Source of the DNA: Haloprofundus halobius
GTDB taxonomy: Archaea > Halobacteriota > Halobacteria > Halobacteriales > Haloferacaceae
Reading direction: 5' to 3'
Length of the DNA stretch: 64,000 nt
Assembly: GCF_020097835.1 (NCBI RefSeq)
Contig: NZ_CP083666.1
Span: 310,001 to 374,000 of the forward strand
Shown here: one piece after another, positions 16,081 to 19,252 of the stretch
Numbering within the stretch: the stretch's first letter is position 1
Layout of the letters: each line of letters begins with the position of its first letter
Translations under genes and position numbers: made by a program
Notes under the pieces: generated by a model
The model's input: only the letters and a program-made list of their open reading frames with translations
What the model was told of the DNA's origin: nothing
Databases searched by the model: none

Positions 16081-16369
16081 TCACCGCGGACGTCGGGCGA
16101 CGAGTGCGTGTGCGGTCCACGAGATGACGACCGCTCCGCGCTGATTCACGCCGATTGTCTCCACGTCGACGTGGCCGCGATTGGGGTCCGACTCCGAGAT
16201 GCGCATCTCTCCGAGTTCGACTCACCCCGAGAGGGTGTCGTCGGGTCGTACCGGCCGGCGAACTCGACGATTTCCTCTCTCGTCAGTATCGCCGACCCCA
16301 ACTCCCAGCGACCGTCGGGGTCGAGTTCCTCGTAGACGCTCGGGGAGTCGCGGCGGACTCGGATTCCAT
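16081..16369 (-). pseudogene. Remnant of a MaoC-like (hot-dog) acyl dehydratase
   Basis: Two pieces of one family lie head to tail. The N-terminal piece (about 16235-16340) reads VYEELDPDGRWELGS, then TREEIVEFAGRYDP, the start of MaoC-like enoyl-CoA hydratases. The C-terminal piece (16081 to about 16225) reads VELGEMRISESDPNRG, then VDVETIGVNQRGAVVISWT and ends in a normal stop. The middle part is missing, and the two pieces are in different frames with a stop between them. A possible ATG at 16369 is also out of frame with the first piece. The gene is dead through deletion and frameshifts. Confidence 0.75.
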
Positions 16370-16756
16370 GCCGTACGCACGGCCCGCTCGGAGAATGACC
16401 GTTCCGGTATCGCCGAAAAAATTTGCACGGTGTTCGACGAGGTGTGTCGCCCGTGGACTCGCACGACCGTCGTCGACCGACCGTCGGACCGCGAGCGTCG
16501 CTGCGCTCCGGTCCGTTCCGGTCGGCCGGTGGACTTCCCCCGGTGCGGCGTGCGGTGCTCCGGCGGGGCGTCGAATTCAGCGTTCCCGCTGCAGAACTTG
16601 CGACGTGCCCGGATGCGTTACCGTACTCTCGACGCTCCGTCGACAGCGACTGACGCGTCACAGGTGGTCGTTATCAATCTGTGGGCCACACGCCGTGTGG
16701 ACTGACTGTGAGGGTTTCGAGAAGGTGCGTGCGCCGCTCGGAGTACCGAGTTGAGA
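16370..16756. other. Gap without a recognisable gene
   Basis: About 390 nt between the MaoC remnant and the first tRNA-like fragment. Open frames exist on both strands but are Arg/Ser-rich and show no motif. A short hairpin (CCACAC-GCC-GTGTGG) lies near 16684-16698. I see no other structure. Confidence 0.5.
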
Positions 16757-16850
16757 GAAGTGCGCTGGCCAGGAGTTCACCGAGCGCAAGCGAGGTGAAC
16801 GACGACGAGACGCAGTCTCGTCGGGACCGAGCAGACCGGCGGTCTGCGAG
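16757..16850. repeat. tRNA 3'-end fragment followed by three short palindromes
   Basis: Positions 16757-16773 repeat the plus-strand form of the tRNA-Gly 3' end (GAGAAGTGCGCTGGCCAGG). The match then breaks into perfect palindromes: GTTCACC...GGTGAAC (16775-16800), a 9-bp arm hairpin with loop GCA (16803-16823), and GCAGACC-GGC-GGTCTGC (16831-16847). The last is almost identical to the hairpin at 17931-17947. Confidence 0.65.
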
Positions 16851-16877
16851 GGTTGGGCGGCGTACGACCGAAGGGAG

Positions 16878-16981
16878 TGCGCTGACCAGGATTCGAACTG
16901 GGTCAGACGTGCTCGCTCATAGTGTTCGTTGCGCGCGACTGACTGGCTCAAAGCCGGTTACTGCATTCACCGCTTCAGCGC
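16878..16981 (-). pseudogene. Possible degenerate tRNA
   Basis: Read on the minus strand, the ends GCGCTGA and TCAGCGC pair over 7 bp. A T-arm with loop TTCGAAT is recognisable, with one base missing from its stem, and CGGT...ACCG could be a D-stem. There is no U8, no D-loop GG and no clear anticodon arm, and the total of about 104 nt is too long. It is best read as a decayed tRNA or tRNA-derived insertion. Chance pairing is possible for the 5' half. Confidence 0.35.
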
Positions 16982-16984
16982 CTC

Positions 16985-17006
16985 GCGACGGAATGAAACC
17001 CGTCGC
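16985..17006 (-). terminator. Hairpin 3' of the tRNA-Gly(UCC)-like gene
   Basis: GCGACGG and CCGTCGC pair around an 8-nt loop, starting 23 nt after the tRNA discriminator base. Hairpins of different sequence lie at the same distance behind the other tRNA copies, so it is a candidate trailer or terminator structure. Confidence 0.45.
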
Positions 17007-17029
17007 TCGGAGGGACTGAATCGTAGAAG

Positions 17030-17103
17030 TGCGCTGGCCAGGATTTGAACACTGGGTTGCGGCCGTGGAAACGACCGCGTGTTGACCGCTACACTACCAG
17101 CGC
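17030..17103 (-). tRNA. tRNA-Gly(UCC)-like gene, possibly non-functional
   Basis: The acceptor GCGCTGG/CCAGCGC with discriminator A matches the intact tRNA-Gly(GCC) at 18108. The anticodon arm reads GCGGTC, loop GTTTCCAC, GGCCGC, giving an UCC-like anticodon in an 8-nt loop. The D-loop is one base longer than in the sister gene. The T-arm has an extra T in its stem (CCAGTG before TTCAAAT). The gene is 74 nt against 71. With one extra base in each of three arms it may be a pseudogene, unless it is the only UCC decoder. A possible TATA box (TTTACAA) lies near 17143-17149. Confidence 0.6.
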
Positions 17104-17335
17104 GAGGTGACTGCGTCTGCGTTTCTATCGATGCCCCGCAGTTGTAAAGGCGTTTTCTCCCTTATCACGCTGCGAGACAGTTCGGAGTCGAGACGCGAGA
17201 ACTGCGGACGCGTTCCAGATTCGAGTCGTATAACCCGTTTCCGTGACACTTCGTCGTCAGCGACGATCACGATGTGTGCTACATCTTAGCAATGGTTTTG
17301 CCGTCTCCTGACCTCCTTCCTGTTGGGGATCTTCG

Positions 17336-17797
17336 ATGACTACACCCGCCGAAAACAAGGAAATCGTCCAGCGGACCTCGTTCGACCTGTTTACCGAGGG
17401 CGACATGGACGTGATCGAAGAGTTGGTGAGCGAGGACTACGTCCTCCACGACCCCGACTGGCCGGAAGAGGTTCGTGGTCGTGACGGACTGAAAACGTAC
17501 GCCGAGACGCTCCGCGAGGCGATGTCGGACCTCTCGTTCGAGTACGACCACATGGCCGCCGAAGGTGACCTCGTCGCGGTCCACTTCACGTGCAGCGGAA
17601 CGAACGAGGGACCCATCCCGGAACTCGGCATCGAACCGACCGGAAACGAGTTCACGGTGACCGGTATGGAGTTCGACCGCATCGAGGACGGGAAGTTGGC
17701 CGAGACGTGGGTCGTCTTCGACACGATCGGACTCATGGAACAACTGGGGATGACTCCCGAAGGAGCAACCTCGACCGAACACCGTCAGAGCGCGTAG
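17336..17797 (+). CDS. SnoaL-like ester cyclase / NTF2-fold protein
   Basis: A 153-residue cone-shaped alpha+beta-barrel protein. The pattern is typical of SnoaL-like polyketide cyclases: NKEIVQRTSFDLFTEGDMDVIEELVSEDYVLHDP, then RGRDGLKTYAETLREAMSDL, and a C-terminal EFDRIEDGKLAETWVVFDTIGLMEQLG. No polyketide genes are nearby, so the substrate is unknown. The gene sits alone between tRNA-Gly-like copies, as carried cargo of a tRNA-associated insertion would, though its base composition looks like its neighbours. Confidence 0.8.
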   Translation: MTTPAENKEIVQRTSFDLFTEGDMDVIEELVSEDYVLHDPDWPEEVRGRDGLKTYAETLREAMSDLSFEYDHMAAEGDLVAVHFTCSGTNEGPIPELGIEPTGNEFTVTGMEFDRIEDGKLAETWVVFDTIGLMEQLGMTPEGATSTEHRQSA

Positions 17798-17866
17798 TCG
17801 TCTCACCGCTCTCTTTTCTGTGCTCTTTCGAATCCGCGAGGTTTACGTTTCCCTCCCGAGAGCCTC

Positions 17867-17888
17867 GCGGCGCGACGAGACGCGCCGC
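17867..17888 (-). terminator. Hairpin 3' of the broken tRNA-Gly-like copy
   Basis: GCGGCGCG and CGCGCCGC pair around a 6-nt loop (ACGAGA), 24-25 nt from the tRNA-like 3' end at 17913. The stem differs in sequence from those at 16985 and 18065 but keeps perfect pairing and position. Confidence 0.45.
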
Positions 17889-17909
17889 TCGGAGGTATTG
17901 AAGTCAGAG

Positions 17910-18036
17910 AAGTGCGCTGGCTGGGACCGAGCAGACCGGAGGTCTGCGAGTGTCGGCGAGACGGAGTCTCGCCGGGATTTGAACCGCCTGAACTTCGCTC
18001 GCTTTCGCTCGCTCGTTCCGTGCTTCAAATCCAGCG
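17910..18036 (-). pseudogene. tRNA-Gly-like copy broken by palindromes
   Basis: The plus strand reads GAAGTGCGCTGGCTGGGA as in tRNA-Gly(GCC), then about 50 nt of palindromes (GCAGACC-GGA-GGTCTGC at 17931-17947 and GGCGAGAC-GGA-GTCTCGCC at 17955-17973), then resumes with TTTGAACC. A further CG-rich repeat (CTTCGCTCGCTTTCGCTCGCT) follows, and then TTCAAATCCAGCG, which is inverted relative to GGATTTGAA. No anticodon arm remains. Confidence 0.6.
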
Positions 18037-18064
18037 TACCGCATTCACAGAATCGGAGCTTCGC

Positions 18065-18082
18065 AGGGCGATAAAACGCCCT
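18065..18082 (-). terminator. Hairpin 3' of tRNA-Gly(GCC)
   Basis: AGGGCG and CGCCCT pair around ATAAAA, about 25 nt beyond the tRNA 3' end. On the transcribed strand the loop is TTTTAT. It is a candidate terminator or processing hairpin. Confidence 0.5.
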
Positions 18083-18107
18083 ACTCAGAGTATTAGATTC
18101 GGAGAAG

Positions 18108-18178
18108 TGCGCTGGCTGGGATTTGAACCCAGGTTGTGACCATGGCAAGGTCACGTGATACCACTACACTACCAGCGC
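18108..18178 (-). tRNA. tRNA-Gly(GCC)
   Basis: A 71-nt gene including discriminator A; CCA is not encoded. The acceptor stem is GCGCTGG/CCAGCGC, the D-arm GTG...CAC, the anticodon stem TGACC/GGTCA with 7-nt loop TTGCCAT (anticodon GCC), and the T-arm CTGGG-TTCAAAT-CCCAG. All four arms pair well. A TATA-like CTTATCA lies upstream near 18215-18221. Confidence 0.95.
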
Positions 18179-18400
18179 CTGACTGCTGCATTCCCACAAT
18201 CGACGCATTTGTTGATAAGGCTTGCGAATCGGCGTCGAATCGGCAGCGGGCGTGGGGGTCGTTCGCACTCCCAAATTCGGCTGAATGTGTCGTCAACAGT
18301 CATGCGAGCGCGTCTCACGGGCGTTTGGATTCCGCTACCCTTTTTAGTGCGTATCGGATAGCAACGTCACAGTCTAGTGGCGAGACACCCAAACGACGGC

Positions 18401-19252
18401 ATGACACTCACCGTATGCGTGCCGTCGTCGCTCGTCCGGGAAGCCGAGGACCAACGCGAGGCCACTCGCAAAATCGGCTACGTCGCCCGCGCGGCGACCG
18501 TGTTCCGGGCGGACCGGTTGGTCGTCTTCCCCGACAGGGAAGGCGAGCGCCGCTGGGGCGGCGAGTTCGTCGCGACCGTGCTCGAATACGCCGCGACGCC
18601 CCCCTACCTCCGACAGGAGGCGTGGGGCAAGCGCGACGAGTTACGGTACGCCGGCGTGCTACCGCCGCTCCGTGTCTCGCCACGGACCGGCTCCGAATCC
18701 GACGATTCGGGGTCGTTAACACAGGGAATCGTGACCGAGGTCGGACCTGAAGGTCGCGTCCGGGTCAATTGCGGACTGCAACACCCGATCTCTCTCTACA
18801 CGCCTCCGGGAACGGAGGCCGAGGAGGGAGAGCGCGTCACCGTCAGGATCTCTTCGAGAGAACCGGTCCGTGCCCGCATCGTCGACGAGACCCCGCCGGG
18901 GTTCGTCGTCGAGCGCATGGACCTGTCGGAAGCGCTCGGCCGTGAGGGCGCCGGCGTGAAGATCGCCACCTCCCGATTCGGACAGCAGTTGTCCATCGGG
19001 CGGTTGTCGACGCTGGCCGGACGAACCGCCGACGGAATGACCGTCGCCTTCGGTTCGCCCGAGAGAGGGCTTCCGGACATCTTCGGGTTTCCGCCCGAAG
19101 CCGTCGCCGACGACGAGTCGGCGGATGACCGAGTCGAACCCGGTCCGGGGTTCGACCTCTGGCTCAATACGGTTCCGCGACAGGGCAGCGAGGTCGTGCG
19201 GACGGAGGAAGCGATGTTCGCCTCACTCGCCTGCCTAACACTCACGGAGTGA
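18401..19252 (+). CDS. SPOUT-family putative RNA uridine-N3 methyltransferase
   Basis: A 283-residue protein of the Methyltrn_RNA_3 (DUF171, C9orf114/SPOUT1-like) family, a trefoil-knot RNA methylase with an inserted OB-like domain (about residues 105-165). Signatures are REATRKIGYVARAATVFRADRLVVFPD near the N-terminus, and VAFGSPERGLPDIFG with the C-terminal LNTVPRQGSEVVRTEEAMFASLACL, which form the knot. It directly precedes rpl3 with a 4-nt gap, an arrangement common in archaea, and probably shares the ribosomal operon promoter. A TATA-like CTTTTTAG lies near 18340. Confidence 0.85.
   Translation: MTLTVCVPSSLVREAEDQREATRKIGYVARAATVFRADRLVVFPDREGERRWGGEFVATVLEYAATPPYLRQEAWGKRDELRYAGVLPPLRVSPRTGSESDDSGSLTQGIVTEVGPEGRVRVNCGLQHPISLYTPPGTEAEEGERVTVRISSREPVRARIVDETPPGFVVERMDLSEALGREGAGVKIATSRFGQQLSIGRLSTLAGRTADGMTVAFGSPERGLPDIFGFPPEAVADDESADDRVEPGPGFDLWLNTVPRQGSEVVRTEEAMFASLACLTLTE

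Follow-up and report, generated by a model that had tools for sequence, protein, structure and literature searches.

The locus described here lies upstream of the S10 ribosomal cluster in a stretch of 64,000 nucleotides from Haloprofundus halobius (contig NZ_CP083666.1, positions 310,001 to 374,000), to which we refer as the window and whose numbering is used below. It comprises an intact tRNA-Gly(GCC) gene, a second, tRNA-Gly-like gene that we call X, and pieces of tRNA 3' ends and hairpins downstream of each. All of these features are on the minus strand; an open reading frame (ORF) for a SnoaL-like protein that separates the two groups is on the plus strand. A first-pass annotation had listed the intact tRNA, a UCC-like gene, and three 3'-end pieces oriented in one direction, and ARAGORN, Rfam (RF00005) and a repeat search show that these are real. 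The repeat search places the three pieces and both tRNA genes in direct-repeat families D1, D2 and D4, and the palindromic material between the pieces contains inverted copies of the same tRNA 3' ends (18022-18054 and 16945-16978). The pieces and palindromes are one architecture, in which a tRNA 3' end occurs in direct, then inverted, then direct orientation, with hairpin loops between the copies. We call one such arrangement a unit.

The upstream unit begins with tRNA-Gly(GCC) (18108..18178), which serves as the first direct copy. ARAGORN and Rfam place the ends of this gene at 18107/8-18178, with 66.7 bits for RF00005. Its sequence is 100% identical across the five species of the genus (one genome per species was compared), and a promoter-like stretch upstream of it (AAGCCTTATCAAC, 18211..18223) is kept in all five. 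An inverted copy of the 3' end and some of its downstream flank follows (GATTCTGTGAATGCGGTACGCTGGATTTGAAGC, 18022..18054), which aligns locally to the reverse complement with a score of 15.2. Between it and the second direct copy is a palindrome-rich loop (GGAACGAGCG...AGCGAAGTTC, 17986..18021), recognized from its sequence, and units behind other tRNAs have loops in this style as well. The second direct copy is split by two more perfect hairpins (17955-17973 and 17931-17948, within 17924..17973) into a T-arm part (GGTTCAAATCCC, 17974..17985) and an acceptor part (CAGCCAGCGCACTTCT, 17908..17923), the latter being the piece annotated earlier at 17910. The stems of these two hairpins differ between species with compensation. 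A mobile hairpin repeat was considered and rejected, as the second hairpin (CTCGCAGACC...GGTCTGCTCGG) is found only twice genome-wide, both times at this locus.

The downstream unit begins with X (17030..17103), which has a promoter-like stretch of its own about 45 nucleotides upstream (AACGCCTTTACAACTG, 17139..17154), with a core, AACGCCTTTAC, that is invariant in the five species. Local alignment reveals that the 3' end of X, together with some flank, is present in inverted orientation (CTGAAGCGGTGAATGCAGTAACCGGCTTTGAGCC, 16945..16978), and this copy is followed by the second direct copy (CCCAGTTCGAATCCTGGTCAGCGCAC, 16877..16902; annotated earlier at 16878). Farther downstream are a short inverted acceptor-like piece (GTACGCCGCCCAACCC, 16850..16865), which was identified by eye and is the weakest of the copies, three hairpins (16831-16848, 16804-16822 and 16775-16800, spanning 16775..16848), and a third direct copy of the X-type 3' end (CTCCTGGCCAGCGCACTTCT, 16756..16775; annotated earlier at 16757). 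Across the five congeneric genomes, the gap between tRNA-Gly(GCC) and X is just 318-1004 nucleotides.

The arrangement is not special to this locus: it follows about a third of all tested tRNA genes. A copy was scored when the last 24 nucleotides of a tRNA recurred with at most six mismatches on the same strand, 20-260 nucleotides downstream. Such copies follow 13 of 41 tested tRNAs of the H. halobius genome, where they are mostly at +70 to +130, as well as 13 of 33 in a genome of a second genus, g21 (G024), 9 of 17 in two further g21 genomes (G092 and G093), and 9 of 25 Gly loci of other genera. The pooled frequency, 44/116, is far above chance, as compared with 0/116 for the tRNA 5' end, 0/116 for the middle, 1/116 upstream and 1/116 antisense, although the tRNAs of the G092/G093 and other-genera sets were not sampled at random and related genomes cannot be counted as independent. 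The earlier view that the repeats at the present locus derive from tRNA-Gly, and from its 3' end alone, is borne out. The intervals are uniformly short (about 70-175 nucleotides) and gene-free, and they occur behind many tRNA types, including Glu, Asp, Leu, Ser, Val, Tyr, Phe, Met, Lys and further tRNAs. Also, the pattern of the piece behind tRNA-Gly(GCC), consisting of GGATTTGAA, 20-50 nucleotides and GGTTCAAATCC, occurs at one to four places per genome in the five congeneric genomes, and a control pattern does not occur at all. Nearly all of these matches are behind tRNA genes (Gly, Glu, Asp, Arg and Lys), and the copied 3' end mostly belongs to the adjacent tRNA.

The inverted copies are likewise specific to their tRNA. 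In 45 units, the inverted T-loop arm matches the T arm of the tRNA to which the unit belongs more closely than it matches the T arms of other tRNAs (p=4e-8), and the full inverted copy in 46 units scores 14.3 on its own unit and 8.95 on others (p=1.7e-23; the pairs are not independent). It exceeds the 95th percentile of mismatched pairs in 31 of the 46 units, but in only 6 of 52 tRNAs that lack a direct copy. In well-preserved units, the inverted copy runs on through the acceptor strand into the downstream flank, and near-complete inverted copies that include the flank are found at two loci (L114 and L291). In a Natronorubrum record, GTGTCGTCAGAAATGG...ATTTGAAC mirrors the end of tRNA-Val(CAC) and its trailer. 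Copies are seen in all stages of decay, and most tRNAs have no unit. Overall, the unit is tRNA-specific, is limited to the tRNA 3' end, and is spread over several haloarchaeal genera. We found no prior description of it in the literature that was searched, which missed most subscription journals.

Two pairs of loci (L185 and L188, L245 and L247) represent the same tRNA in different species, and in each pair the arms are common and the loop cores differ. Such loops look as if they had been exchanged, or as if the units arose repeatedly. In a plasmid-labelled record of Natronorubrum bangense (L293; NZ_CP031306.1, 272214-275288), two tRNA-Gly(GCC) genes are situated close to a gene for an RNA methyltransferase. 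The second is followed by an inverted T-loop-like stretch and then by a direct copy of its acceptor end, and the pattern therefore probably extends to Natrialbaceae.

X was described in the first-pass annotation as part of a degenerate array, but it is not decayed; it is a conserved, noncanonical, supernumerary tRNA-Gly. The gene has 74 nucleotides and reads, 5' to 3', GCGCTGG TA GTGT AGCGGTCA ACAC G CGGTC GTTTCCAC GGCCG CAAC CCAGTG TTCAAAT CCTGG CCAGCGC A. It folds with a 7-pair acceptor stem, an 8-nucleotide anticodon loop around UCC (GUUUCCAC), and a T stem that is bulged by one extra base, and so it differs from canonical tRNA-Gly, which has a 7-nucleotide anticodon loop and a 5-bp T stem without a bulge. 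ARAGORN reports it at 17029/30-17103 as "tRNA-???" with the anticodon left unresolved, and Rfam matches it to RF00005 with 40.1 bits and insertions in the anticodon loop and T stem. X is present at the same place in all five species, with identities of 100, 100, 100, 100 and 99% and one substitution in total. Its flanks are 49-64% identical overall, including 53% at 76-150 nucleotides upstream, 61% in the first 60 nucleotides downstream and 49% in the next 140.

Covariance-model searches for X were conducted on 171 genomes of the family (with a model built from X and a first relative) and, with a second model, on a sample of 392 genomes of the order. Only the same genus (five of five genomes) and g21 (G024, G092 and G093) yielded relatives with the T-stem bulge, and none was detected elsewhere among these genomes. 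The g21 copies are all in a single syntenic position, each following the same gene for a small protein. In comparison with X, they have changes on both sides of pairs 4-69, 5-68 and 49-65, and pair 30-40 varies among U-A, U-G and C-G, so the fold has been kept while the letters change. The first-pass annotation had looked to base-for-base conservation across genera as the sign of a functional RNA cluster instead of decay. This applies to X, which is nearly identical within its genus and has these compensatory changes in the second; the other fragments are not conserved to that degree. Phage and plasmid sequences gave no convincing match to X, and pattern matches in viral contigs were ordinary or unrelated tRNAs. 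In one congeneric genome, a 23-nucleotide stretch (L119, G002:C1:1322182-1322204) is antisense to the X anticodon arm with one mismatch, possibly by chance.

The H. halobius genome holds canonical tRNA-Gly genes for CCC, UCC and GCC. A canonical tRNA-Gly(UCC) is also present in G001-G004, G092 and G093, and one of canonical type is present in G024 (L201). Because every genome with X has such a gene, X is extra. Bulge-free UCC tRNAs of similar type, found in G022 at the same locus and also in G322, suggest that X derives from a UCC-type duplicate. The positions of the archaeal glycine identity set, as established for Aeropyrum (C35, C36, C2-G71 and G3-C70; PMC9976931), are intact in all copies of X. 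In the g21 copies, position 18 (G to A) and position 55 (U to G) are both altered; G18 of the D loop is unchanged in Haloprofundus. Judging from these sequence features, X may be transcribed and charged with glycine but poorly used in decoding, and perhaps it serves another purpose, such as that of a glycine donor or a regulatory tRNA-like RNA. A FemAB glycyl-transferase is not supported as a partner for X, given that weak matches also occur in genera without X and are missing in G092 and G093.

X might instead be a decoding tRNA with an expanded anticodon loop, acting as a reader of GGA or as a +1 frameshift suppressor. The UCC is kept in all copies, and the 8-nucleotide anticodon loop resembles those of frameshift suppressor tRNAs. 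However, position 33 is A in place of U in the G092 copy, a possible G32-C38 pair closes the anticodon loop in all copies, G18 and U55 are altered in g21, and the canonical UCC tRNA is available, and so we regard a decoding role as rather doubtful. The canonical-type tRNA-Gly(UCC) of G024 rules out X as the sole reader of GGA in that organism. It is far less probable still that X is a decaying pseudogene and that the whole array arose by tandem duplication with decay, which was the alternative offered in the first-pass annotation. The low tRNA score of X and the existence of a normal tRNA-Gly(UCC) are in keeping with a pseudogene. In contrast, X has the single substitution in five species and the compensatory stem changes in g21, and tandem duplication predicts copies of D or anticodon arms, which are lacking among the fragments here, just as copies of 5' and middle pieces are lacking downstream of all 116 tRNAs surveyed.

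The order of the copies is suggestive of template switching. A growing DNA end could fold back at the hairpin-rich 3' end of a tRNA gene, and two successive fold-backs would give the direct-inverted-direct order exactly, with palindromic loops as the expected turning points. The copied stretch comprises the T loop, the acceptor strand and roughly 5-20 nucleotides of flank, and the unit might later decay or gather further palindromes. The units show the direct-inverted-direct order with tRNA-specific arms that fold-back triplication would give. We think it probable that the locus holds two conserved, apparently expressed tRNA-Gly genes, each with a relic 3'-end unit formed by template switching, and that X is an extra tRNA-Gly with a role outside decoding. 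Several points weigh against this interpretation. X is a short stretch, 74 nucleotides in five related species, and identity at the fourfold sites of the neighboring gene still amounts to 89-96%; the contrast between X and its flanks may therefore in part reflect fast turnover of the flanks. The g21 anticodon loops have 8, 7 and 7 nucleotides, and thus the 8-nucleotide loop is not a fixed trait; X may retain some ability to decode. Template switching, the origin that we favor, is unproven, and we infer it from its product alone. Loops of one style occur behind different tRNAs, and the same tRNA can be followed by different loops, which is also compatible with a small mobile cassette. The inverted copy might have a role as RNA.

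Other origins can be weighed against template switching. Tyrosine recombinases that target the tRNA 3' end, from the T loop to the discriminator, might have left duplicated attachment sites, and the integrated elements might later have been lost except for short palindromic ends. The intact gene is kept, and only its 3' end is copied, from the T loop onward; the T loop is known as a region of attachment in archaea (PMC8371274). As in the 3'-end fragments generated by integrase elements (PMC8371274; PMC9897764), the partial copy and the intact gene are on one strand, with the copy downstream. In the H. halobius genome, an integrase adjoins the canonical tRNA-Gly(UCC) (G000:C1:1696109-1697370), and in the sister species G004, a 42-nucleotide direct copy of the 3' end of canonical tRNA-Gly(UCC) is found 5.5 kb away (L232, G004:C1:372500-379500), as is left by a real integrated element. 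In contrast with such elements, the intervals described here are short and gene-free and follow about a third of the tested tRNA genes, of many types, and the inverted, tRNA-specific copy is foreign to attL/attR logic. Moreover, the five congeneric genomes have no integrase at this locus and no element between the repeats; all eight integrase matches in the H. halobius genome are elsewhere, and the nearest tRNA-Gly case, the integrase beside tRNA-Gly(UCC), is about 1.37 Mb away. The worn integration hot spot proposed in the first-pass annotation is therefore weakly supported, and is not supported as something specific to this locus, where attachment sites do not predict the inverted copy; relics of integration are an unlikely source of the units. 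A palindromic mini-element that duplicates a long target when it inserts at tRNA 3' ends seems equally improbable. Cores such as CAGTCGCGCGCAGCG...GAGCACGTCTGG are shared by units of different tRNAs and genera, and the core is found inside the T arm of a Cys-tRNA-like gene on a Haloarcula plasmid. This Cys(GCA)-like tRNA, in Haloarcula halophila (L292; NZ_CP119561.1, around 1130-1270), is part of a dense array of 13 called tRNA genes but is itself not called by ARAGORN, and its T arm is split by an insert in which the core CAGTCGCGCACAGCG...GAGCACGTCTGG accompanies an inverted copy of the T loop. However, a tRNA-specific inverted copy would need a second mechanism, and just four partial matches were found in 72,556 plasmid records, and none in phages.

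It is also conceivable, though we consider it somewhat unlikely, that the units function as RNA. The inverted copy would then be an anti-tRNA that misfolds a read-through precursor, and the second direct copy would be an anti-anti-tRNA that sequesters it, which would provide a switch or fail-safe for 3' processing or termination. In predicted structures, the median probability of native acceptor and T-stem pairs is 0.93 for the tRNA alone, falls to 0.02 with the inverted copy, and returns to 0.38 with the second direct copy; a control with the interval reversed gives a predicted 0.84. Also, G024 and G093 have nearly identical units behind Gly(CCC). Nevertheless, complementarity alone would cause the predicted loss of native pairing, recovery with the second direct copy is inconsistent across the 46 units (p=0.06), and both the lack of a unit behind most tRNAs and the presence of copies in every stage of decay count against a function. 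A broader proposal is more doubtful than this: that haloarchaeal tRNAs carry a widespread, self-derived anti-tRNA/anti-anti-tRNA maturation switch, and that X is a dedicated nondecoding glycine tRNA, possibly the first in archaea.

Some known systems share features with the units and with X. The MITE, PATE and SMR repeats of Haloquadratum, which lack a transposase, are likewise short, palindrome-rich, noncoding and haloarchaeal. However, in the available part of their description (PMC3119063), their targets are other mobile elements and not tRNA genes, whereas the units use the sequence of the adjacent tRNA itself as arms. Staphylococcus aureus keeps extra, nonproteinogenic tRNA-Gly isoacceptors, altered at positions 18-19 and in the T stem, beside the normal ones (PMC4052509, citing Giannouli 2009). 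X differs in being archaeal and in its T-stem bulge and variable anticodon loop, and FemAB-like genes do not track it. By analogy, and without implying membership in that group, the most economical reading is that X would be a charged tRNA-Gly poorly suited to normal decoding. X can also be likened to tRNA-Other, a pseudo-tRNA of Bacillus cereus (PMC3399842) that is a tRNA-like gene outside translation yet functional. In contrast to X, which has no associated island, tRNA-Other belongs to an extended regulatory RNA adjacent to a genomic island.

If the unit is a product of mutation, haloarchaeal genomes would each preserve, at their tRNA genes, a dozen or more natural records of template switching by fold-back. 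A functional unit would represent a new layer of control over tRNA maturation. Annotation tools overlook X or report it as undetermined. This strictly conserved tRNA-Gly offers a direct route to ask whether archaea keep tRNAs for nondecoding purposes.

The two protein-coding features near the tRNA genes are bystanders. The SnoaL-like ORF (17336..17797, plus strand; 153 amino acids, with the family name as given in the first-pass annotation) is between the two units. This ORF is seemingly lost in G004, in which its upstream sequence joins the unit behind tRNA-Gly(GCC). A MaoC-like pseudogene (16086..16370, minus strand; ends approximate) has an internal deletion and has lost its frame. It had been called dead in the first-pass annotation, and it is indeed broken in H. 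halobius but has an intact frame in at least one sister species (G004). Finally, a match to the L4-Archaeoglobi ribosomal leader (RF03135) is found at 18747-18846 on the plus strand, with 73.7 bits against a cut-off of 34.5. The match sits within an open frame (18377-19252) upstream of ribosomal protein genes, and is present in G004 as well.
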